Made by a program: the position numbers and the translations under genes. A DNA stretch of 50,084 nt from Verrucomicrobiales bacterium (GTDB taxonomy: Bacteria; Verrucomicrobiota; Verrucomicrobiia; Verrucomicrobiales; DEV007). Shown here one piece after another: positions 12,518 through 31,357 of the stretch. The stretch spans positions 1-50,084 of the forward strand of contig JARGOP010000022.1 in the NCBI GenBank assembly GCA_029233965.1. The letters are read 5' to 3'. Under the pieces are notes generated by a model. It was given only the letters and a program-made list of their open reading frames with translations, searched no databases and had not been told where the DNA came from. The stretch's first letter is position 1. Every line of letters starts with the position of its first letter.

Positions 12518-12550
12518 CAAGAGGGTTAAGTCAATGAGCTGACCCTCTTG
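12518..12550. repeat. Inverted repeat after the isomerase-like gene
   Basis: CAAGAGGGT at 12518-12526 pairs perfectly with ACCCTCTTG at 12542-12550 around a 15-base loop. There is no T-run, so it is not a canonical terminator by itself; it lies just ahead of one. Confidence 0.5.
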
Positions 12551-12559
12551 AAGGACCTG

Positions 12560-12591
12560 AAAATCCGGGACTTTCAAGCCCCGGATTTTTT
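12560..12591 (+). terminator. Rho-independent terminator of the isomerase-like gene
   Basis: AAAATCCGGG (12560-12569) pairs with CCCGGATTTT (12580-12589) around a 10-base loop, and the T-run extends to 12591. It lies 68 bases after the isomerase stop. Its position also argues that the following PAP2 gene starts at 12605 and not at the in-frame TTG at 12548. Confidence 0.85.
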
Positions 12592-12604
12592 GCGTGAACT
12601 GACC

Positions 12605-14017
12605 ATGGATGATATTGTGAATCCCGAAATGCCCGAGCAGGAGGCAAATGATGATTCGCCTTCGGGATCCTTTCCCGGAGTTCCTCATGGTCCCGTTTTC
12701 CGGTGGCACTGGGTATGGCTGCCCCTGCTGCTTTTGATGATCGGAACTGTCCTGATCCGGATTTACGATCTGGACCTCACGATTCAGGAAGCGATTTACA
12801 CGGCGGGAGGCAATTCCTGGGCGCTTGGGGATCAGTTCTTCTGGAGGACGCTTTATCAGTTCGGAACGATACCTGCTTTGATCTTCGCGCTTGGTGCTGT
12901 CGTAGGTTACGGGGCCAGCTGGTCAAAGCCAAAATGGAAGAAGTGGAGGCGGGTTCTTCTTTTTGTCCTTCTCACCGCTATCACCGGTCCCGGGCTGGTG
13001 ACGAATCTTGCGTTGAAAGAAAACTGGGGGCGGCCCCGTCCGCGTGAGGTGGAGGGGCTCGGGGGGCACAATGCCTTTGAACCAGTCCTGACCATTGACC
13101 GGGGGAGCGAAGGCAAAAGCTTTCCCTGTGGCCATGCGACGATGGGTTTCCTCTTCATGGGCGGGTTTTTCCTCCTGCGTCGTTACCGGGCGGGGATTGC
13201 CTGCTGGTTTCTGATCGGAGGTTTCGTCGGGGGAACTCTCACCGGCATTGCCCGCATGATGCAGGGCGGGCATTTTCTTTCGGATGTGATCTGGGCGGCC
13301 GGAGTTTGTTGGTTCGTGCCAATGGGGCTCTTCTATGCACTTGGGCTTCACCGTGGATTGCTCAAGTCCGTTGATCTGTTTGAGAGCACTCCAAAGTGGA
13401 TCAAGGTTGCGTGCTGGTTTGCCGCAGCGCTTCTTTTTACCGCCGCGATGCTTGCGACTCCATTCCGAAGCAAGCGTAATTTCTTCATCGTGAACGAGGC
13501 GGCGAAAACGGGCCCCCTTCATGTTGAGTTGCTGTTAAAGCTCGGAGATATCAATATTGTGGGAGCTGATCGACTGCACATCCACGGTGAGGCATACGGG
13601 CATGGAGTCCCGACTTCGAAGGTGGCGACGATTTATAACGAGCGTGAAGAACCGGGATACTGGGCGGTCTGGTATAAGGAGCGCATCAGTGGTCGGGTCA
13701 CGGAGGCAAATCAGCAGTTGAAGATCGAAGTGCCACGGTGCCGAACCAGCCGGATAGGCTTACGGACAGGGGATGCCCGAATCTGGTTGGAACTCTTTGA
13801 ACCCGGCGGTGATCTTGAGATCCACCTTCACGAAGGGGCCGGCGAGCTTCATGTATCCGGTGCCGGGGTCAGTCACCGGGTAGTTCGATATGGGGAGACG
13901 ATTGCCGCGGAGGAGAGGCCTCCCGTCATCGTATTCGTTCATGACGCTTACGCGGGAGAATTGTTTCTTGAGTCTAGTGCCAGTCACGGACCGCCGGATT
14001 CCTCCCTTAGTGAATAA
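12605..14017 (+). CDS. PAP2-family membrane phosphatase with extra C-terminal domain
   Basis: The protein (470 residues) has the three PAP2 phosphatase motifs: KENWGRPRP (Lys138 to Pro146), SFPCGHA (His177, with Cys in place of the usual Ser of PSGH), and RMMQGGHFLSD (Arg217, His223, Asp227). Several membrane segments surround them (about 36-53, 86-104, 117-137, 178-215, 228-248 and 268-285). By family such enzymes dephosphorylate lipid phosphates such as undecaprenyl pyrophosphate, phosphatidic acid or lipid A. After the last membrane segment about 185 residues follow with a beta-rich pattern (LLLKLGDINIVGAD, RIWLELFEPGGDLEIHLHEG), predicted outside the cytoplasm and not part of the catalytic fold. 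Start chosen at 12605 because the earlier TTG lies upstream of the terminator hairpin. It is followed by ppk 62 bases on. Confidence 0.87.
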   Translation: MDDIVNPEMPEQEANDDSPSGSFPGVPHGPVFRWHWVWLPLLLLMIGTVLIRIYDLDLTIQEAIYTAGGNSWALGDQFFWRTLYQFGTIPALIFALGAVVGYGASWSKPKWKKWRRVLLFVLLTAITGPGLVTNLALKENWGRPRPREVEGLGGHNAFEPVLTIDRGSEGKSFPCGHATMGFLFMGGFFLLRRYRAGIACWFLIGGFVGGTLTGIARMMQGGHFLSDVIWAAGVCWFVPMGLFYALGLHRGLLKSVDLFESTPKWIKVACWFAAALLFTAAMLATPFRSKRNFFIVNEAAKTGPLHVELLLKLGDINIVGADRLHIHGEAYGHGVPTSKVATIYNEREEPGYWAVWYKERISGRVTEANQQLKIEVPRCRTSRIGLRTGDARIWLELFEPGGDLEIHLHEGAGELHVSGAGVSHRVVRYGETIAAEERPPVIVFVHDAYAGELFLESSASHGPPDSSLSE

Positions 14018-14079
14018 ATTCACAAAGTTCAACTCGCATATCGTTTGCCTGTTGTTAGGTTCTCCGTTTTTTGATTTTT

Positions 14080-16119
14080 ATGGAGAAAGACTTCCGCAGC
14101 AAGGAAACCAGTTGGCTCTCGTTCAATGCCCGCGTCCTCCAGGAAGCTGCTGATCCCGAAGTGCCGTTGTATGAACGCATCAAGTTTCTTGGGATCTACA
14201 GTTCGAATCTGGATGAGTTTTTTCGAGTGAGAGTGGCGACTTTGAAGCGACTCGCCTCTCTCGGGGATCAATGGAAGGAACTGAGTATTCCGAATCCCAA
14301 CGAAACGCTGCGAAAGATCAAGCGGCTCGTTTCGGCTCAGGCTGAGCAGTTTAACGACGCGTATGCGAGGGTTAAAGGTGACCTTGTCGTCAACGATGTG
14401 AGGCTCATTGATGAGACGGAGGTACCGGCGAATCTGAAGGCCTTTCTCCTCAACTATTTCCGAACCGACGTCAGTCCGCATATTTTCCCGATCATTCTGA
14501 AGTCCGCGTCGAAGCTTCCGCAGTTGAAGGATCTTCCCATGTATCTGGCGGTGAGAGCTTCCAAGTCGGACGGGAGCGGTCGTCCCATGCATGCCCTCAT
14601 TGAGATCCCCGGCAACCTGCCCCGGTTCCTGCTTCTCCCGAAAACCTCATCGACCCAGTTGGTGATGTATCTCGACGACGTGATCCGGTTTGGGCTCCAT
14701 GAGGTGTTTTCAACGTTTCCGTATGACCACTTTGAGTCTTATGCGATCAAGTTCACCCGGGATTCGGAATTGGAGTTCGATGATGACTTTACGGAGAGCT
14801 TCTACGAAAAACTGGAGGACAGTCTCAAGGCGCGTGAGGAGGGTCTCCCGGTCCGGGCTAACTTTGACCGGGATTTCCCGAAGCCTTTCCTGAACCTCGT
14901 CCTCCGAAAGCTTAATCTCGCACGGTCGGACTCTCTCTATCCGGGGGCGCGATATCACAATCGGCGTGATCTTCTCAGTTTCCCCAAGATCAACAAGAAG
15001 GGATTCGTATACGAAGATGCTGAGCCGGTCCCGGTGAGGCTGATTAAGAAGAAGGCGGGGCTTTTCGCTTCGATTCGAAAGCGGGACATTCTGCTTCATA
15101 TCCCTTATCAGCCCTTTCGGCATCTTATCACGCTGCTGCAGGAAGCTTCCATTGATCCACTGGTTCGCCGGATTCAGTTGACTCAATATCGCCTTGCCAA
15201 AGCATCCTGCATTGCGGCCGCGCTTCAGTCGGCGGCGCGAAACGGCAAAGAGGTTTTCGTGCTCGTTGAGCCTCAGGCCCGATTTGACGAGGAGGCAAAT
15301 ATCAAATGGGCGAGCCGCTATCGCGATGCCGGGGTGCAGGTGCAACTTGGCGTGCAGGGCCTCAAAGTGCACAGCAAAATGGTCCATATCACGCGGAAGG
15401 AGTCGGGACGGGACCGCCTCTATTCCGTGTTGGGGACCGGCAATTTTAACGAGGACACCGCAGGCATTTTTGCAGACCATTTGTTGATGACCTACAATCA
15501 GGAAATCGGGGAGGACGTCGGCAAGGTCTTCGATTTCTTCCGGCGCTCCTATCATCCTCCGAGGCTCGGTCATGTTCTGATTGCCCCGTTTCATCTCCGT
15601 GATTTTCTTCGAACCCGCGTTGAAAAAGAAATCGAGAATCATGAAAACGACCTCCCGTCGGGGATCTCGATCAAGGTGAACAATTTCTCGGATGTGGAAA
15701 CCAACAAGCTGATCCGTCGGGCCGCCGAGGCGGGCGTGCCTGTCCGGCTCATTGTTCGCAGCATGTTTTCACTCGTCATGAAGGACGATGACCCGATTGA
15801 GTCCATGAGCATTGTGGATCGCTACCTTGAGCACAGCCGGATGCTGATCTTTGAGAACGGAGGAAGCCCGAAGGTGTTTCTTTCATCCGCCGACTTTCTG
15901 CCTCGCAACTTCGACACGCGGGTGGAGTCCATTTTTCCAATCATCGACAAAAAGTTGAGCGATCAATTGCGGGAATATTTCGAGATTCAGTGGCGGGATA
16001 ATACGAAAGCCCGGATCCTGGATCGTGAGCTCACGAACAAGTATCGACCTCGCAGGAAAAACGAGCCGGTTGTCCGGGCGCAATACGATATCGAGAATTA
16101 CCTGAGAGGAGGGAACTGA
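14080..16119 (+). CDS. ppk1: Polyphosphate kinase 1
   Basis: PPK1 (679 residues) reversibly polymerises the gamma-phosphate of ATP into polyphosphate. The N-terminal domain begins with the typical SWLSFNARVLQEA and FLGIYSSNLDEFFRVRV. The phospholipase-D-like catalytic core has GLKVHSKMVHITR with His431, matching the autophosphorylated His435 of E. coli, and DRYLEHSRM with His585, matching His592. Length is within the normal range. Start chosen as ATG 14080; an in-frame TTG three codons upstream is less likely. It lies 62 bases after the PAP2 phosphatase and converges on the protease gene, with only 10 bases between stops. Confidence 0.96.
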   Translation: MEKDFRSKETSWLSFNARVLQEAADPEVPLYERIKFLGIYSSNLDEFFRVRVATLKRLASLGDQWKELSIPNPNETLRKIKRLVSAQAEQFNDAYARVKGDLVVNDVRLIDETEVPANLKAFLLNYFRTDVSPHIFPIILKSASKLPQLKDLPMYLAVRASKSDGSGRPMHALIEIPGNLPRFLLLPKTSSTQLVMYLDDVIRFGLHEVFSTFPYDHFESYAIKFTRDSELEFDDDFTESFYEKLEDSLKAREEGLPVRANFDRDFPKPFLNLVLRKLNLARSDSLYPGARYHNRRDLLSFPKINKKGFVYEDAEPVPVRLIKKKAGLFASIRKRDILLHIPYQPFRHLITLLQEASIDPLVRRIQLTQYRLAKASCIAAALQSAARNGKEVFVLVEPQARFDEEANIKWASRYRDAGVQVQLGVQGLKVHSKMVHITRKESGRDRLYSVLGTGNFNEDTAGIFADHLLMTYNQEIGEDVGKVFDFFRRSYHPPRLGHVLIAPFHLRDFLRTRVEKEIENHENDLPSGISIKVNNFSDVETNKLIRRAAEAGVPVRLIVRSMFSLVMKDDDPIESMSIVDRYLEHSRMLIFENGGSPKVFLSSADFLPRNFDTRVESIFPIIDKKLSDQLREYFEIQWRDNTKARILDRELTNKYRPRRKNEPVVRAQYDIENYLRGGN

Positions 16120-16129
16120 GGTCGGCGTC

Positions 16130-17128
16130 TCACTTCCAGTTTTGTTCAAGTGGTTCGGTCAGCAAAGCGACAGGACGCCTGCCCTGAGTACCGGGGGAGA
16201 CGACTTCGAAAGTGAAGCTTGAACCGGCGGGTTTGGATCGAAGGATTTCAAGGAGCTGATGTCGTCGCCGCACGGGGATGCCATCGCAGCTGACAATGAC
16301 GTCAAACTGTTTCAGGTCGGCGCGAGCGAGAGGACCGTTTTTGAAGACGGGATTGATGAAAAGCCCCTCGGCGTTCCGGGGAAGTTCATCGAGAAGAGAG
16401 CGGTCCGCAGTCCAGATTTCCCAAATGTAGCCGCCCAGTCCCGGGGTTTGTGCAATGGCGTTGGATTCGAGCAGGGCCGCGGCCGCTTTCGGGCTCGAGA
16501 CCATGCTCAGCCCCGAGGAACCCTTCTCGGCGAGGAGTCGTCCGTGCTGGATGCCGACGATTTCCCCGCTTCGGTTCACCCAGACGCCTCCGGAGGTCAT
16601 CACGGGATTGATAGCGCTGACAAAGTAGTGAGCGAGGTAGCCCTTCGACGCGGTGAAGTCCGTGTAGCTGATCCGCGAGTCGGCGATATGACCGGGGATC
16701 ACAAGGGTTCGTCGCCGCAGGGCGGGACCGAAGTTGAAGACGGGCTCGGTTTCGTTGGGAATCGACACAGCAAGCGGGAGACTGCCGTAGTGTCCCGCCT
16801 CGGGATCCACTTCGAGGATCGCAAGGTCATGTCCCAGGTCGTAGGCGCTGAGTGACGCAAAGTAAGACTTTCCATCATTTGTCGCGATGACTGCGGTGTC
16901 GCGCGGAGTGTGAAAAAGATGCGCCGCAGTGAGGATGAAAAGCTTGCCCCGGGAGTCTTTCACAAAGGCACCCCCTCCACGAAGTTGGCCCTGGATCAGC
17001 ACCTCGACCGATGCTGTTCTAACTCGATCAACCACGGACTTGCTCATTTCCTCATCCGCCGGAAGAGAATCGGCAAGAGTGAGGAGGAATGGAATGGCAA
17101 AAAGAAACCTCACGGTGGAAGTAGTCAT
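16130..17128 (-). CDS. Secreted trypsin-like serine protease with PDZ domain (HtrA-like)
   Basis: This 332-residue protein has a signal peptide (FLFAIPFLLTLADSLPA, about residues 8-24), a trypsin-type domain and a C-terminal PDZ-like domain (about 240-330). The likely triad is His70 (LTAAHLF), Asp101 (GHDLAIL) and Ser179. The serine sits in MTSGGVWV instead of the canonical GNSGGP, so the SGG core is kept but the preceding Gly-Asn and the Pro are not; activity is plausible but not certain. Export and PDZ suggest a periplasmic quality-control or regulatory protease. Its start overlaps the stop of the upstream DUF455/ATP-grasp gene as ATGA (17125-17128), implying translational coupling and a shared task. 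Confidence 0.85.
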   Translation of the reverse strand: MTTSTVRFLFAIPFLLTLADSLPADEEMSKSVVDRVRTASVEVLIQGQLRGGGAFVKDSRGKLFILTAAHLFHTPRDTAVIATNDGKSYFASLSAYDLGHDLAILEVDPEAGHYGSLPLAVSIPNETEPVFNFGPALRRRTLVIPGHIADSRISYTDFTASKGYLAHYFVSAINPVMTSGGVWVNRSGEIVGIQHGRLLAEKGSSGLSMVSSPKAAAALLESNAIAQTPGLGGYIWEIWTADRSLLDELPRNAEGLFINPVFKNGPLARADLKQFDVIVSCDGIPVRRRHQLLEILRSKPAGSSFTFEVVSPGTQGRRPVALLTEPLEQNWK

Positions 17129-19203
17129 GAGAGCTGAAACCGGCTGCGTTGCTTCGCGATTTGAATCAGGGCTGCGAAGTGCGAGTTTGGGCGGGGTTCG
17201 GTGAGGAGAATGCTGCCGCTGGATAATTTTCCTTTCTTCATCTCAAAAGAGAAATCGACCTGATTCAAGTCGGAAACTTTCACCATTTTCATGAGTAAAC
17301 CGCACCCCGGTGCGATCTGTTTTCTCAACTCGTGAGCGACACGTCCCATGGTGTAGCGGGGGTTGATTTCACAGACCGTGCGATGGCAAAGCTTCCCGTC
17401 ATGATCACAGTAAAGGTAGGTGTCGATTCCCAGCGCTCCGGAAAAACCGAATCGTGAGGCCCACGTCTCGAGGTCATTCACGAAGGCGGAATCTGTCTCG
17501 TAGCGGGGAAGCGCTTCGGTCATGAGAAAGCGGGCTGTCTCAGGATCCAGTCCCTGGCAGAATTTCGGCATCGCAATAGTGCCCCGATAGCCGCCCGAGG
17601 GAGCGATGAGTTGCTCGACGGTGGAAACGCGTCTGGCGCTTCCGTTCTCAATCTCAAACTGAACCGAAAAATCGAAGACGCGCGCATGACAGGGTTCGAG
17701 AAGAATCCCGCCGCCTTTTGCCGGTGTTTCCGCGAAACCACGGGTAAGGAGGTCTTCGAGTTCTGCGAGGGTGAGGCGTCTCATTCCGCTGCCGGCGGTG
17801 GCATAGGAACGCTTCAGAATAACCCGGTCAGTGCCGGTCGAGCGGAAGGACTTGAGAGCCTCTTCGAGATCTTCGCGGGTCTTCACTGGAAAACTCGTCC
17901 CGAACCATTGCGGGAGAGCTTGTGCCTGCTCGCTCTTCGAGAAGAGGGCACGGTCTTCGTGCTTCCATTTCCAGTTTCCGGTCCCGTTGGTTTCGTTGGC
18001 GGCGAGAGATGGAAATCCCTCCCATAAATCGGGCGCTTTCGACCAGGGCAGAAACCGATGGATCTTGCGCTCATGGAGAAGGCTGTCGTCCTGCAAGGCG
18101 CCCCGGGGTCCGAGCTCTTCGATTTCGGGAAGGTGGAAGCCTGCCTCAATCAGTTTCAGGCGATGTCCCGCTGAGGGAGCGTTTCGCATGAGGACAAGAT
18201 CATCCCGCTTCGCGAGAAAGAGGATCAGTGATTCCAGGTCATCGCTCACCGCCTGGATTCTGGCCGGAGGGTGATAAACCGCCGGAGCTATCGCCGCACG
18301 ATTCTCCGCCTCGGGATTGAAATAATAGACGTTGGGGGTCCGACCTCGGGACCTCTCGTAGAGGCTGAGCTTCTCGATGTAATCGTCATCAAATCCGGCA
18401 GCGCGGCGTCCTTCAATGTTGAAGGGCGTCTGGTTTCCCTTGGCCCGGATCGGGGAGAGGGGGAAGACGAGCCGTTTCTCCAGTGCGTCCCAATCGGAAT
18501 CCGACTCCGCTTTCCATTTTCGAAACCACTTCAGTCCATAGCCGACGTGGGAAATTTCATCCTTGTAGATTTGCTCCAGAATCTTCGAGCTGGGCGCATC
18601 GCCGGCCTCCTTCAGAATCCCGGCGTAGTGCTTTGAGTAATCCAGATTCGCCTGCTCGAAGGTTAGGCTGAGCCGCGAGACATAGTCCACCGGGCATTCC
18701 ATCGTCGAGACACTGTCCCAGAAAAAACGGTTCACGGGATACTCACCGAATTCGACTCCGCATTGCTTCATCCGGTTCACATACCAGGCGGTGTGACGCT
18801 GCTCCTCCTTGAGCGTTTTCGCGAGGCCGCGAAGGAACGCGGTGGGTGCGTTTCGAAAGCGAAGGATCGCAAGGGCCATCAACTCGACAGCGAGGAGTTC
18901 GTGATTGGCGAAAAAATGGAGAAGGACACCACGGCTCGATTCATCGACGAGGGTGGGGGCCGAGGGCATCGCGGGGCGGGCCTCATGGGAAGCGGCAAAT
19001 CGCAGGTGGGAGGGGCGACCTGGTTCGAAATTGTAAAGGTCGCGTGCGGTCCTCTCTGTAATAGGCGAGTCAAAGTCCAGTAAGGACGGAAACCTCAGCT
19101 TTTCTGAGAGCGACCCGGAGAAAAGAACGCGCTCGGCATACTCGACCGGAGACTCAACGGCGGGAGGCTGCTCTGTGGAGGGTTGAGGCATGATCGGGGG
19201 CAA
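17125..19203 (-). CDS. DUF455 ferritin-like domain fused to an ATP-grasp domain
   Basis: This 692-residue protein joins two enzyme-like modules. Residues about 15-250 match the DUF455 ferritin-like family, with potential di-metal ligands in HELLAVELMA (His101, Glu102, Glu107), KEEQRHTAW (Glu133/134, His137) and DEISHVGYG (Glu216, His219). Residues about 290-690 look like an ATP-grasp ligase: Lys464 in VILKRSYATAGSGM, ILLEPCHARVFDFSVQFEI, and CEINPRYTMG with Glu612 and Asn614 as Mg-ATP ligands. No signal peptide, so cytoplasmic. A metal-dependent oxidase or hydroxylase step and an ATP-dependent C-N or C-O ligation on one substrate would explain the fusion, but the product is unknown. It is translationally coupled to a PDZ protease. 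Family calls are from motifs; the second domain is less certain than the first. Start could be the Met four codons in. Confidence 0.78.
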   Translation of the reverse strand: MPPIMPQPSTEQPPAVESPVEYAERVLFSGSLSEKLRFPSLLDFDSPITERTARDLYNFEPGRPSHLRFAASHEARPAMPSAPTLVDESSRGVLLHFFANHELLAVELMALAILRFRNAPTAFLRGLAKTLKEEQRHTAWYVNRMKQCGVEFGEYPVNRFFWDSVSTMECPVDYVSRLSLTFEQANLDYSKHYAGILKEAGDAPSSKILEQIYKDEISHVGYGLKWFRKWKAESDSDWDALEKRLVFPLSPIRAKGNQTPFNIEGRRAAGFDDDYIEKLSLYERSRGRTPNVYYFNPEAENRAAIAPAVYHPPARIQAVSDDLESLILFLAKRDDLVLMRNAPSAGHRLKLIEAGFHLPEIEELGPRGALQDDSLLHERKIHRFLPWSKAPDLWEGFPSLAANETNGTGNWKWKHEDRALFSKSEQAQALPQWFGTSFPVKTREDLEEALKSFRSTGTDRVILKRSYATAGSGMRRLTLAELEDLLTRGFAETPAKGGGILLEPCHARVFDFSVQFEIENGSARRVSTVEQLIAPSGGYRGTIAMPKFCQGLDPETARFLMTEALPRYETDSAFVNDLETWASRFGFSGALGIDTYLYCDHDGKLCHRTVCEINPRYTMGRVAHELRKQIAPGCGLLMKMVKVSDLNQVDFSFEMKKGKLSSGSILLTEPRPNSHFAALIQIAKQRSRFQLS

Positions 19204-19313: not shown

Positions 19314-21056
19314 ATGATTGATTGGCTGACAAGGAGCTGGGTTTTCCGCTTTTGGGAAGGTGTCTTCCGATGGGTGCGTCAGGCAACTGATCGCCTCTTG
19401 AGTCTCGGGGACACGCGCGGCCTTGCGATTAAGATTTTCATGGGTGCGCTGGCGTTCGGTCTCGTGCTCCATTTTCAGGGAACTCTGAGCGACTACAAGG
19501 AAGCCAGCAATGCGCTGAGAGAGGCCAGGAATCCGGAAGCGTTGCGGGAAATCCCGTCTTTTGCCCCGCTTGTCTGGCAGGGGATGGGCGTCTTTTTCGC
19601 CCTGGCGGCCTTTCTGACGAGCCTTTGGATTCGGGAATCCTCCTCCGGTGAGGTCGAGCGGCGGGGAAAGTTGATTGTCATCGCACTCTGGATTGCCGCG
19701 GCTGCCGCGCTCTGCTCGTGGCTGCCTTCGGATATCGTCGCCACTCAGGAGGCGATTTCCGGAAAGGCTCTCGCGGGCGAGAATCCCTCGATCCCGGCTT
19801 ATCTCGGGAAACTGTTTCTGATCACTCTCTTGATTCTGAGTGTTCCCGCCGCCGCGATGGTCTATTTCCGACTCAGTCTCATGGATCGCTATGTGGTTCA
19901 TAGCTTTCTTTCTCCCTTCTCGCTCTGCCTTTTTTCCTTCATGGCGATCTGGGTGATTGCTGACATCACCGACAATGGTCCTGCTTTTGGAGGGATGACG
20001 GCAGGGGGGATTCTGCAATTTTACATCGTGCAGGTTCCTTTTGTAATCCTCTTCGTAATGCCGATTGCGGTGCTCCTTTCGGGCCTCTCATCACTCAGCA
20101 AGCTCTCGAAATCCAACGAACTCATCAGCATGATCGGTGCGGGTCGAAGTGTTTTCAGAATTTTGATCCCGCTTTTTGTGGCCGGTATCTACGCGAGTCT
20201 CATCAGCCTTGCTTTCAAGTATGAATGGGCTCCGGCATCGGTAGGATACAAAGAGGCTGTGATGGAGGCGGCGATGCGGAAAATCAGAGCCGAAGACACG
20301 GGGGAGGAGATCACGGAGGATCTCTGGGCCAAGCGCGGATGGATGCATGTGAACGAAGTGGATCGTCGAACGTGGTTTGTTGGAAGGATTCCGTTTCGTC
20401 TCAGTGATGAGATGGCTGACGTCGTCATTTGGAAACTCACCCCCGAAGGGTATCCGGAAACGATCTGGAAGGCGGAACGTGCCCGCTGGCTGGCAGAAGC
20501 GAAGCCTCCCAGGTGGGAGATGCTGAATGTCAAGGTTTACACATACGACGAACAACATATCCCGCGGATCAAGAGCTTTGACCTTCTTCCAATCGAGGAT
20601 TGGTCGGAAACGCCGTGGAAGGTTCTCAGTTCGTCACAGAACCCGGAGTATCTTGGTATTCCGGGGCTGACGATGTACTTGAACGCCAACAGTGACATGG
20701 ACGAGATCAACCTTGCCCCGTTCCGAACGAACTGGTGGTATGTCTTTGCGGAGCCGCTTTCGTGCCTTGCCTTGATCCTTGTCGCGGCCCCTTTCGGGAT
20801 CGTGTATTCGCGGCGCGCCTCGATGGCCGGGGTCACCGGGGCGATCATCATCTTTGCGATGATGTATCTGATGCGCGGAACCTTTCTCGCGCTCGGGCAG
20901 CGGGGAACCTTCAACCCCGTCCTGGCTGCCTGGGGCACGAATCTTGTGGTCGCCGCGATTGGTGTCTTCATGCTGTGGTTCCGTGCCAGGAATCGGGAAA
21001 TCCCGAAGCTCCGGGACCTCTTCCGGAGGCGGAAGTTCATTCAGGTTTCGAATTGA
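19314..21056 (+). CDS. LptF/LptG-family permease with N-terminal membrane extension
   Basis: Residues about 185-575 match the YjgP/YjgQ (LptF/LptG) family. The domain starts LMDRYVVHSFLSPFSL, has membrane segments, then LSSLSKLSKSNELISMIGAGRS and a long extracytoplasmic beta-jellyroll portion, and ends with further membrane helices (FIVAAPFGIVYSRR-type region, MMYLMRGTFLALGQ). By family these subunits form the inner-membrane part of the LPS exporter with the LptB ATPase. The total of 580 residues far exceeds the usual 350-400: about 185 extra N-terminal residues contain two or three membrane segments (about 40-52, 85-103, 120-138, 160-180). Whether this copy acts as F or G cannot be told. It is divergent from the DUF455/ATP-grasp gene. 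Confidence 0.85.
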   Translation: MIDWLTRSWVFRFWEGVFRWVRQATDRLLSLGDTRGLAIKIFMGALAFGLVLHFQGTLSDYKEASNALREARNPEALREIPSFAPLVWQGMGVFFALAAFLTSLWIRESSSGEVERRGKLIVIALWIAAAAALCSWLPSDIVATQEAISGKALAGENPSIPAYLGKLFLITLLILSVPAAAMVYFRLSLMDRYVVHSFLSPFSLCLFSFMAIWVIADITDNGPAFGGMTAGGILQFYIVQVPFVILFVMPIAVLLSGLSSLSKLSKSNELISMIGAGRSVFRILIPLFVAGIYASLISLAFKYEWAPASVGYKEAVMEAAMRKIRAEDTGEEITEDLWAKRGWMHVNEVDRRTWFVGRIPFRLSDEMADVVIWKLTPEGYPETIWKAERARWLAEAKPPRWEMLNVKVYTYDEQHIPRIKSFDLLPIEDWSETPWKVLSSSQNPEYLGIPGLTMYLNANSDMDEINLAPFRTNWWYVFAEPLSCLALILVAAPFGIVYSRRASMAGVTGAIIIFAMMYLMRGTFLALGQRGTFNPVLAAWGTNLVVAAIGVFMLWFRARNREIPKLRDLFRRRKFIQVSN

Positions 21057-28420: not shown

Positions 28421-30751
28421 ATGAGAATCCCGTTCCTTCTCCCTCTCCTCGCCGTCTCGTTCTTCCTGCCGGGGCTTCAGGCGCAGGAGGAAAAGGAATT
28501 CGATCCTTTCTCCGATGAAGCGGCAGAGGCCCTCCGGGAATTGCAGGAGTCTGAATCGCCTGCTCAATACATGGAGCCGGGCAAGATCCGCGAGCTCACC
28601 GCGTTGGCCAAGCCCTCGATCGTGACGGTGAGGCAACTGGGGCGGGATGGGGAAAGTCGCGGCACCGGGTCAGGGTTTATCATTTCTGAGGACGGCCTGA
28701 TTGTCACCAATCTTCATGTCATCGGGGAAGGGCGCCCCGTAGAAGTCGAGCTCTTCGATGGAACAACAAAACCGGTCATCGAAGTTCACGCCTGGGACAG
28801 GCGCTATGACTTGGCCGTGATTCAAATCGAGCCCGGGGAACTGGAACTCAAGGCGCTTCCGCTGGCGAAGGCGGGGAAAGCGGAACAGGGGCAGCTCATT
28901 GCCGGATTCGGGGCGCCCCAGGGACTGAGTTTCAGCGTCGTTGCCGGAGTGATCTCGGCGATTCGAGAATTGGAGGATGGCTTCGTCGGGGATGAGACGC
29001 CGGATTACCCGATGCTCCAACTCGCGATGCCGATCGAACAGGGGAACAGTGGAGGTCCGGTCATTGATATGGACGGCGAAGTTCTCGGGGTGGTTACGTT
29101 GCGACACCGCATCACCGACAATCTCGGATTTGCCGTGCTCGGCAGCGATCTGCAACGACTCCTCGACAAACCGAATCCGGTACCGATGAAGCGGTGGCGA
29201 ACGATTGGATTGCTGGATCCAAGGCAGTGGACTCCGGTCCTCGGAGCAGACTGGACGCAACGCGGGGGCGTGGTCCGCGCCGGTCAGCTTGGCGATGGAT
29301 TCGGCGGCCGGACCCTGTGCCTTTCCAGCGAAGCTGTGCCCGAAGGAAGTTATGAGTTGGAAGTGACGGTGCGACTTGATGACGAGTCCGGAGCAGCGGG
29401 GCTGGCCTTTGCTTCGGATGGTGGCGACAAACACTATGGTTTCTACCCGAGTGGGGGGCAGATCCGTCTCACCCGCTTCGAGGGAGCGGATGTCTACAGC
29501 TGGTCCATTCTGGAACAGCTCGAAGCGCCTTCCTACAAAGCGGGTGATTGGAACACGCTTCGGGTTAAAGTGGATGACACGACGATAACGGGGTGGGTCA
29601 ACGGGGAGAAAATCCTCGAGCTGGAGGATGCCGGCTTGCGCGGGGGAAAGGTAGGTCTTTGCAAATTTCGACGGACCGAGGCTGAATTCCGGGGTTTTTC
29701 CGTTGCTCGCGAACTCGGCGTGAAATCGCTCCCTGCGGCAGACCGGATCCGGCTGACGGAAAGCATCGATCGCTTCCTTGAGAAGGAAAAGGTGGAGGAA
29801 ACCATTGCCGAGCTGAGTCGTGAGAGTGAACACGGTCGCCTTTTGCTTCTGGAGAGAGCTTCGGAATTGGATCGACTGGCCGCGCGATTGAGACAGTTGG
29901 AGGGAGAGGTCTATCTGCACGAAGTCATCAATGAAATGACCATGGCTTTGGATCGGCCCGAATCGGAGATCGACCTTTTTGAAGTCGGTCTTCAGATTGC
30001 CCGTCTCGATGATCCATTGCTGGATCTGAATTACTACCGTTCGGCATTTGCGCGCCTCGTGATCGACGCCGCGGAACACCTCGAAAGGCACGCTCTCGAA
30101 GGAGGCGAAAAGGAACGGGTCACCGCCCTCGCGGAGTTTCTTTTTGAGGAAAACGGATTCCATGGAAGCCGGAGCGAGTACTACCATCATGCGAACAGTT
30201 ACGTGAATCATGTCCTCGATGATCGCGAAGGGCTTCCGATCACCTTGAGCGTCATCTTCATGGAGGTGGCGAGACGCCTTCAGATCGAAGGAGTCTACGG
30301 GGCACCGCTTCCGGGGAAGTTCATGGTGGGGTTGGACTATGAGAAGGACGGGAAGGACAGCTCGCTCTTCATCGATGTTTTCGAAGGTGGTCGCGTCATT
30401 GATCGCAGCGGCGCGGTTCGCGAGATCTGGGAGCTCCTCGGTTCCGCTCCGGAGAAATCGGCTTTTCATCCTGCCGATGCGCGTCAGATCGCGGTTCGCA
30501 TGCTGAGAAATCTCGTCGATATCGAGATCAATCGGGAGCAGACTCCCGAGGGCGCTGCCGATTACCTCGAGCTGCTCCTCGCGATCGAGCCCAAAGCCGC
30601 CCGGGAACGATTCCAACGCGCGCTTCTCAGGATGCAGGACGATAATGTGACCGGAGCAAAAGAGGATCTGGACTGGCTCCTCGAGCATCGTCCTCCGGGG
30701 ATTGACTACGGGCGCCTGGAAGTATTCCGCGGGACGCTGGTGGAGGAGTAG
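28421..30751 (+). CDS. Secreted trypsin-like protease / LamG-like / SirB1-transglutaminase-like fusion
   Basis: This 776-residue protein has a signal peptide (MRIPFLLPLLAVSFFLPGLQA). A trypsin-type domain (about 60-250) follows with an intact triad: His99 (VTNLHVIG), Asp130 (RRYDLAVI) and Ser210 (EQGNSGGPVI). Residues about 255-435 form a concanavalin/DUF1080-like lectin fold (GLAFASDGGDKHYGFYPSGG, DWNTLRVKVDDTTITGWVNG). A helical linker (about 440-500) leads to a SirB1/transglutaminase-like domain (SYVNHVLDDREGLPITLSVIFM, near 598-619) and a short TPR-like tail. In SirB1-type proteins the next motif is usually PGHF; here it is PGKF, so that His is absent. I know no characterised protein with this order. 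The next gene starts 18 bases on. Confidence 0.82.
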   Translation: MRIPFLLPLLAVSFFLPGLQAQEEKEFDPFSDEAAEALRELQESESPAQYMEPGKIRELTALAKPSIVTVRQLGRDGESRGTGSGFIISEDGLIVTNLHVIGEGRPVEVELFDGTTKPVIEVHAWDRRYDLAVIQIEPGELELKALPLAKAGKAEQGQLIAGFGAPQGLSFSVVAGVISAIRELEDGFVGDETPDYPMLQLAMPIEQGNSGGPVIDMDGEVLGVVTLRHRITDNLGFAVLGSDLQRLLDKPNPVPMKRWRTIGLLDPRQWTPVLGADWTQRGGVVRAGQLGDGFGGRTLCLSSEAVPEGSYELEVTVRLDDESGAAGLAFASDGGDKHYGFYPSGGQIRLTRFEGADVYSWSILEQLEAPSYKAGDWNTLRVKVDDTTITGWVNGEKILELEDAGLRGGKVGLCKFRRTEAEFRGFSVARELGVKSLPAADRIRLTESIDRFLEKEKVEETIAELSRESEHGRLLLLERASELDRLAARLRQLEGEVYLHEVINEMTMALDRPESEIDLFEVGLQIARLDDPLLDLNYYRSAFARLVIDAAEHLERHALEGGEKERVTALAEFLFEENGFHGSRSEYYHHANSYVNHVLDDREGLPITLSVIFMEVARRLQIEGVYGAPLPGKFMVGLDYEKDGKDSSLFIDVFEGGRVIDRSGAVREIWELLGSAPEKSAFHPADARQIAVRMLRNLVDIEINREQTPEGAADYLELLLAIEPKAARERFQRALLRMQDDNVTGAKEDLDWLLEHRPPGIDYGRLEVFRGTLVEE

Positions 30752-30769
30752 GAGTAGAAGCAAGCGCAG

Positions 30770-31357
30770 ATGAAGACTTTCCGCTGGGTGTTGCCGGACC
30801 CGCCGAGAATGGCTTCGGAGAAGGAGCCTCTGCATGAGGCGGGGCGGGAACGTCGGGTTGGTTTCATCTTCTTTTTCCTGGGAGGATTTCTGGTTTTCTT
30901 ATGGCTTTTGAGCGCATCGTTGCTGCTTCCTGAACTGGAAAGAGTGATCGCCAGTTATCGTTGGGAAAATCAGATCGTGGAGATTCGTGAATCATCCGTA
31001 TCGTTCGAAGGCGGGCGCGCCCGAGCCGATGTGAAATTCGAGATACAGGTCGGAGATAAGCACGTTCCGGAGAGTTATCGTTTCTTCCGGAAGATGAAAG
31101 AGGATGAATTCGGCGCGTGGAGCGGGAACTATGCGATCGGGGGGAAACTGGATGTTCTCGTTTCTCCTTCCGGGGATGTGATGCTGGAGCGATGGAGTGG
31201 ATTCGGGGTCTTCCTGTCCCTGGCTTTCCTCCTTTTTTATGCCTTCATGGCGTTCAAGGCGGGGAGACTGAGATTCGCAAAATCTACCGAACTTTTGGCG
31301 GAAGACACAAAAAAAGCCGCTCCCGTTTCCGGAAGCGGCTCTTTTGAAATCGATTAA
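30770..31357 (+). CDS. DUF3592-like membrane protein
   Basis: A 195-residue protein with two membrane segments (about 31-52, FIFFFLGGFLVFLWLLSASLLL, and 145-161, FGVFLSLAFLLFYAFMAF) enclosing an extracytoplasmic domain. That domain fits DUF3592: paired strands (IVEIRESSVSFEGGRARADVKFEIQV), a central charged loop, then LDVLVSPSGDVMLE before the second helix. Function unknown. It is 18 bases after the protease fusion. Its last 15 codons are made from the hairpin and A-run that serve as terminator of the convergent rpoA-rplQ transcript, so its C-terminal tail (KKAAPVSGSGSF) probably has no structural role. Confidence 0.78.
   Translation: MKTFRWVLPDPPRMASEKEPLHEAGRERRVGFIFFFLGGFLVFLWLLSASLLLPELERVIASYRWENQIVEIRESSVSFEGGRARADVKFEIQVGDKHVPESYRFFRKMKEDEFGAWSGNYAIGGKLDVLVSPSGDVMLERWSGFGVFLSLAFLLFYAFMAFKAGRLRFAKSTELLAEDTKKAAPVSGSGSFEID
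31309..31340 (-). terminator. Terminator of rpoA-rplQ, inside the 3' end of the convergent gene
   Basis: On the minus strand the stem AGCCGCT/AGCGGCT (31334-31340 with 31315-31321), extended inward after one mismatch by CCGG/CCGG-type pairs, is followed by seven T (31315-31309, the first T being also the last stem base). It lies 30 bases after the rplQ stop. On the plus strand the same hairpin is followed by CTTTT, so weak termination of the other gene is possible. Confidence 0.85.

Follow-up and report, generated by a model that had tools for sequence, protein, structure and literature searches.

The window analysed here, a stretch of 50,084 nucleotides at positions 1 to 50,084 of contig JARGOP010000022.1 (assembly GCA_029233965.1, a Verrucomicrobiales bacterium), carries on its minus strand a gene in which a ferritin-like DUF455 module is joined to an ATP-grasp-type ligase module. 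This fusion is old and is conserved as one chain across the phylum. Because the fused modules keep all their catalytic residues across the phylum, the best reading of the protein is a two-step enzyme, a diiron oxidase and an ATP-grasp ligase acting on a diffusible amino-acid-type substrate, a reading to which we give an even chance. The result is smaller than the three-part system proposed in an earlier note on this DNA, in which an exported protease encoded beside the fusion belonged to the same processing system; that third part did not hold up.

A DUF455 module and an ATP-grasp module in one chain

In the open reading frame (ORF) list, two genes make up the region 16130-19203. Both lie on the minus strand, a point that the earlier note does not make. 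The fusion gene and its modules are as follows.

17125..19203, minus strand: DUF455/ATP-grasp fusion gene, 692 codons counted from TTG
18376..19032, minus strand: DUF455 ferritin-like module, residues 58-276, predicted diiron ligands E102, E134, H137, E183, E216 and H219
17128..18336, minus strand: predicted pre-ATP-grasp and ATP-grasp module, residues 290-692, with K423, K464, E503, D594, E612, N614 and R616

The chain is a single ORF, as had been claimed, but its 692 residues count from the TTG codon, and translation more probably starts at codon 5, an ATG (position 19191).

The DUF455 model (PF04305) matches residues 58-276 with an E-value of 8.9e-49 and 166.7 bits, against a Pfam cut-off of 34.3, and this is the sole PF04305 match in the genome of the window (G000 in the sampled genome sets). 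The fusion alignment has 60 rows, the window protein and 59 relatives admitted at E<1e-100; alignment A2 holds 56 of these rows (L068, L085, L093 and L104 excluded), and alignment A6 holds 43 of the 60 C-terminal halves together with P0001 and P0002. The residues E102, E134, H137, E183, E216 and H219 are invariant in all 60 rows, and the full carboxylate/His ligand set described previously is thereby confirmed. The same six positions are also invariant in four stand-alone DUF455 proteins of Pseudomonadota, which share the domain at 24-28% identity but are separate proteins of about 275-285 amino acids, whereas DUF455 in the window is fused to a ligase. E107 is likewise invariant among the fusions, but the stand-alone proteins have Asp or Asn there, which favours E102 as the helix-1 ligand. 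Ferritin-like diiron sites usually have two ExxH motifs and two further Glu, and the N-terminal half probably carries such a ferritin-type site, with iron as the likely metal judging from the ligands.

In the C-terminal half, K423, K464, E503, D594, E612-x-N614 and R616 are invariant in 60/60 rows, which bears out the ATP-grasp Lys and Glu-x-Asn of the earlier note, and these residues fit the catalytic residue criteria given in PMC4431377. That paper also describes the R2K clade, in which the linker Lys is replaced by a Lys or Arg elsewhere and in which R2K.3 has ExGD; such features were not found in the fusion, where K423 (taken as the linker Lys) and ExN are invariant. The family profile finds one solved protein, 7r8p, at an E-value of 3.5e-4, and the profile of the C-terminal half gives 4.3e-4. 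The Pfam ATP-grasp models gave no match to the window protein at E<=1, which concerns a threshold and not a defining feature of the fold. At E<=1, 13 of 56 members of the fusion family match PreAtp-grasp (PF18604) weakly, the best value being 1.4e-4; the window protein is not one of them. Weak matches to DUF3182 occur in 10 of the 56.

Two structure models were made, each from three sequences only, and both are weak for that reason; the mean predicted local distance difference test (pLDDT) score was 47.5, and 58.2 for residues 286-692. The full-length model gave ATP-grasp matches again and no ferritin match among the 50 rows listed, and is uninformative on the DUF455 fold. With the model of residues 286-692, Foldseek returned 181 matches at E<=0.001, with query template-modelling (TM) scores of about 0.2-0.35; the 50 listed are all ATP-grasp-type enzymes. 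Ranks 1-20 were taken by 8ynq/8ynd (a Streptomyces ATP-grasp peptide ligase, 8ynq having the best E-value of 1.1e-10), 3wvq/3wvr (PGM1) and 7r8p/7r8q. In VIA-align, where rows within Z 1 count as tied and Z <8 may reflect merely a common arrangement, the order was 7r8p (Z 9.0, root-mean-square deviation (rmsd) 8.5, 278 aligned), 3wvr (Z 7.8, rmsd 9.4, 296 aligned), 8ynd (Z 7.6, rmsd 8.6, 290 aligned), PurK 4ma0 (Z 7.4, rmsd 7.9, 254 aligned) and BesA 8yi6 (Z 6.9, rmsd 9.2, 289 aligned). Taken together, the residues, the profile match and the fold comparison make a firm predicted assignment of the C-terminal half to ATP-grasp. Of the checks that had been suggested, the profile search confirmed DUF455 directly, and ATP-grasp was supported by the 7r8p profile match and the fold of a weak model.

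The fold matches also include PurK, GAR synthetase and biotin carboxylases, PurK being level with the peptide ligases in Z. These matches would suit a different reading, in which the ligase half forms a non-peptide amide, for example on a precursor of a lipid, quinone, sugar or cofactor, and DUF455 hydroxylates that molecule in the manner of COQ7 or MiaE. A faint resemblance between the DUF455 half and demethoxyubiquinone (DMQ) monooxygenase, below threshold (E 0.12), would suit it as well. We consider this reading unlikely, given that Foldseek ranks 1-20 are of peptide-ligase type or 7r8p/7r8q and that no quinone, lipid or cofactor pathway recurs among the 25 most frequent neighbour families.

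Distribution and age of the fusion

The genome survey proposed in the earlier note found the same fusion widely. Among close relatives there is a match in 41 of 56 genomes, with G002, G038 and G049 matching in the ligase half only. The class sample has the fusion in 46/286 genomes, the window's included (matches below 1e-99), and every match extends into the ligase half; a PF04305 search of this sample gave 46 strong matches, scoring at least 150 bits, and the frames that contain them are 632-886 codons long. In the phylum sample the fusion is present in 23/387 genomes; there are 23 strong DUF455 matches (>=142 bits), none of them in a frame shorter than 648 codons. Of these 23 fusions, 18 also belong to the 46 of the class sample, so that the two samples together contain 51 genomes with the fusion. 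Strong-type DUF455 thus occurs exclusively fused within these samples. The fusion is found in at least 14 family codes, namely 11 in the class sample, f3 and f6 among the close relatives and f83 in the phylum sample. Divergence in one half tracks divergence in the other (60 sequences, r = 0.85, a value reached by 0 of 1000 permutations), which fits inheritance as a unit, and mean identity is 0.57 in the N-terminal half versus 0.35 in the ligase half.

A second, weak group of PF04305 matches in the class sample scores at most 55 bits, in frames mostly of about 390-780 codons. Owing to the score gap between 55 and 150 bits, we read this group as other ferritin-like proteins. In the searches of both samples such weak matches often lie in frames of about 450-500 codons, at times several per genome, and look like a separate ferritin-like family of the phylum. 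Some of the weak group score above the Pfam cut-off. In total, 64/286 class genomes (versus 46 with strong, fused matches) and 41/387 phylum genomes have a match over the Pfam cut-off of 34.3 bits.

Outside the sampled genomes, the fusion was found in 0 of 14 matching records of the plasmid collection (13 were DUF455-only and one ligase-only), and a scan of viral contigs found no relative. Two ligase-only relatives were seen. The one in class genome G281 (L092:6242-7795), which has no PF04305 match in the class-sample search, lies between a sulfatase gene and a miaA-type isopentenyl pyrophosphate (IPP) transferase gene and appears to have lost the DUF455 half. The other, annotated as a hypothetical protein on a Parabacteroides distasonis plasmid (L108:9992-11197), is related to the ligase half, stands alone and keeps the ATP-grasp residues except for a change of the linker Lys to Arg; no DUF455 or ferritin-like product is annotated within 10 kb of it.

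Proposed function and points against it

In the proposed mechanism the fusion would be a bifunctional enzyme, probably cytosolic. The DUF455 module would hold a carboxylate-bridged diiron site and probably activate O2 for hydroxylation, desaturation or cleavage of an amino-acid-type substrate. The C-terminal ligase, of the PGM1 or L-amino-acid-ligase type, would convert a carboxylate to an acyl phosphate and then join it to an amine. Metal-dependent modification followed by ATP-dependent ligation, the order already put forward in the earlier note, is presumably also the order of the steps, and fusion would let oxidation and ligation share an intermediate. The substrate would be a diffusible metabolite rather than a peptide encoded at the locus, because outside the genus no other gene is conserved around the fusion. 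We propose more tentatively that the gene is a single-gene, phylum-wide pathway to an undescribed oxidised dipeptide or amide metabolite in core physiology of the Verrucomicrobiota type; if true, this would give DUF455 its first biochemical function.

Several observations weigh against the two-step reading. DUF455 was absent from all 14 control genomes, and unfused DUF455-like proteins are present in the phylum by Pfam's own cut-off. The ligase module occurs without DUF455 in G281 and on the Parabacteroides plasmid, so the ligase can work alone. The Foldseek top 20 have TM-scores of about 0.3 and rmsd >11, with low model pLDDT, and the tie of PurK with the peptide ligases means that the substrate class of the ligase is not fixed. 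The literature search found no paper on DUF455 function by title or abstract start, and DUF455 may instead have a redox, metal-sensing or iron-storage role.

In one form of the last idea, the diiron half does not oxygenate the substrate of the ligase; it would sense redox state, iron status or peroxide and regulate or protect the ligase. The DUF455-free ligase relatives are in keeping with it, as is the finding that, of three annotated stand-alone DUF455 genes in Alphaproteobacteria, two come immediately after a peroxiredoxin gene. We judge it improbable, since the six ligands are invariant in 60/60 rows and the N-terminal half is the better conserved of the two, which is unexpected for a mere sensor. 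The two gene pairs with peroxiredoxin were seen in Sinorhizobium and Sphingomonas (stand-alone DUF455 at L139:5824-6648 and L141:5860-6681) and not in Azospirillum.

The two-step reading can be compared with several known systems. PGM1-type/PreATP-grasp peptide ligases (3wvq, 3wvr, 8ynd, 8ynq) have an ATP-grasp core like the one predicted in the fusion, with a pre-ATP-grasp domain that is matched weakly by some members of the fusion family; identity is 12-15%, and the fusion has a diiron-type module and no recurring natural-product cluster. SAOUHSC_02373 of Staphylococcus aureus (7r8p, 7r8q), the sole solved protein found by sequence profile and the one with the highest Z, has 406 amino acids and no apparent DUF455 part, and the literature search found no account of its function. 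The cluster of the biosynthetic enzyme BesA is an analogue that combines a heme-oxygenase-like oxidase with an ATP-grasp ligase. Diiron oxidases of this heme-oxygenase-like type near ATP-grasp ligases are reported in at least 25 unique gene clusters, together with in vitro mangotoxin work, in PMC13185094. By analogy, the fusion may work like mangotoxin MboA with MboC/MboD, a diiron oxidase and an ATP-grasp ligase acting on amino acids, as described in that paper. The mangotoxin and BesA systems have separate genes, variable clusters and a heme-oxygenase-like fold, whereas the fusion has a ferritin-like DUF455 in one chain, no cluster and a phylum-wide distribution; it resembles those systems but is not a member of them, because the oxidase family differs and the cluster is absent. 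An earlier paper, PMC2922099, had predicted operons that contain both a diiron oxygenase and an ATP-grasp peptide ligase.

No paper naming a DUF455/ATP-grasp fusion in its title or abstract start was found, with subscription literature mostly outside the search; the fusion is apparently unstudied though widely kept, and its chemistry testable. Its stable joining with a ligase gives direct evidence of the partner chemistry of DUF455 and points to an amino-acid-type substrate. DUF455 is found in many bacteria, and the fusion offers one gene with both half-reactions assayable. The logic of diiron oxidase and ATP-grasp ligase in variable natural-product clusters would here be extended to a ferritin-like oxidase in one chain.

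Gene neighbourhood and search for a substrate gene

The genes around the fusion in the window are as follows, the two outer ones given for context only.

16130..17128, minus strand: HtrA-type serine protease, 332 amino acids, one PDZ domain, signal-peptide-like N-terminus
19314..21056, plus strand: LptF/LptG-type permease (lptG), divergent neighbour of the fusion gene
14071..16119, plus strand: polyphosphate kinase (ppk1), convergent neighbour of the protease gene

The intergenic gaps are 110 nucleotides between lptG and the fusion, -4 between the fusion and the protease, and 10 between the protease and ppk1. The conserved small substrate gene for which the earlier note proposed a search nearby did not turn up. 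The 110-nucleotide gap of the window contains three ORFs of 22-44 amino acids, but comparison of the 35 short ORFs in the lptG-fusion gap of 21 genus loci yielded five similar pairs at E<=0.01, and no group extended over more than three loci. This comparison excluded L105 and L107, which are without the lptG cluster, and L058, which is without a table; it was relied on because gap lengths measured by the first start are too short where ORFs are over-extended. No precursor gene of a ribosomally synthesised and post-translationally modified peptide (RiPP), graspetides included, was found at the locus, genes elsewhere in the genome being outside this search. Since no short ORF is common to more than three of the 21 loci and the other gaps measure -4 and 10 nucleotides, a ribosomal-peptide system centred on the locus, or a locus-encoded peptide substrate, is unlikely.

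Outside the genus, 110 of the 136 proteins within two genes of the fusion were scanned, and the commonest families match 4 of the 110 (Mqo in 2). The top 25 of 132 neighbour families show no shared pathway. L058, L078, L079 and L093 fall outside the neighbourhood table, having no usable anchor, and L048 and L052 were dropped as duplicates of L001 and L002.

The neighbouring HtrA-type protease

The description of the neighbour as a serine protease with a PDZ domain is correct. Trypsin_2 and PDZ_2 both score above their Pfam cut-offs, the triad H70, D101 and S179 is invariant in 16/16 orthologues, and the N-terminus resembles a signal peptide as judged by eye. Proteases of the HtrA/DegP type likewise combine Trypsin_2 and PDZ with an intact triad. 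Their usual catalytic-serine context is GNSGG, whereas TSGG/SSGG stands at this site here; the window neighbour has one PDZ domain and scores far below the NCBIfam cut-offs.

The coupling of stop and start noted earlier is real in the window, where the two genes overlap by 4 nucleotides as ATGA, and in some congeners, but conservation of the pair does not extend across the family. Within the window's genus, 31 of 33 genomes have a fusion match (G002 in the ligase half only), and G003 and G032 are without both fusion and protease. A protease orthologue adjoins the fusion in 19 of these 31 genomes, the G028 copy being split over two contigs and the G002 copy having stops; an 85-residue remnant, decayed and with three stops, is left in G014; and 11 genomes gave no orthologue, 8 of them with the downstream sequence seen. 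Some of the 11 genomes are fragmentary (G018 is 52% and G019 77% complete, and the G019 match stops at a contig end). The G014 remnant (C93:5246-5500) sits beside a fusion gene whose match has no stops. At fusion loci outside the genus, the orthologue was found in 0/36.

A tree was made by a quick method from 24 genus rows, of which 16 have the protease and 8 lack it, and nine of the 36 others; 9 of its 30 inner branches are open. On it, protease presence needs at least four changes among the genus rows and five with the nine outgroup rows. As protease-bearing rows stand at the base of the tree, one gain and four losses within it is the simplest account. Among 23 tabulated genus loci the protease is kept in 16, ppk1 in 16 and lptG in 21; the order of protease and fusion is therefore ordinary synteny, kept like ppk1 and less than lptG, with perhaps a mild functional link within one genus.

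Outside the genus, two of 33 tabulated fusion loci (L082 and L099) have an HtrA-like gene within two genes. If each genome is taken to have 4500 genes, the 272 Trypsin_2 matches at E<=1e-8 across 36 genomes would lead one to expect about 0.2 such loci; the excess is weak and nothing is built on it.

These data bear on the reading in which the fusion modifies a peptide that the exported PDZ protease matures or degrades. The ATGA overlap, the intact triad, the occurrence of the orthologue nowhere but beside the fusion (56 genomes searched) and the two HtrA-like neighbours speak for it. Some other ATP-grasp branches that have no known precursors are strongly linked to peptidases, according to PMC8939145, so the idea is not absurd, though unsupported here. 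The patchy occurrence in the genus and the absence outside it, the repeated changes on the tree and the lack of a short ORF common to more than three loci all argue against it. Moreover, the protease bears an apparent export signal whereas the fusion has none evident, and the HtrA-like genes at L082 and L099, with 501 and 532 codons, exceed the protease gene in length and lie on the opposite strand to the fusion. We hold this reading to be very improbable. The protease was rejected as a general partner of the system, being patchy in the genus, absent from the loci outside it and no better kept than ppk1 or lptG.

Other observations in the window

A second DegP/HtrA-like ORF of 776 codons (28421-30751, plus strand, E 4.4e-14) lies in the window away from the fusion and is overlapped by a long minus-strand ORF at 28670-30835. 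Next to the polyphosphate kinase gene, positions 12548-14017 on the plus strand encode a membrane protein of the PAP2 family that extends far past its PAP2 match and belongs to cluster c8, seen at 13 loci.

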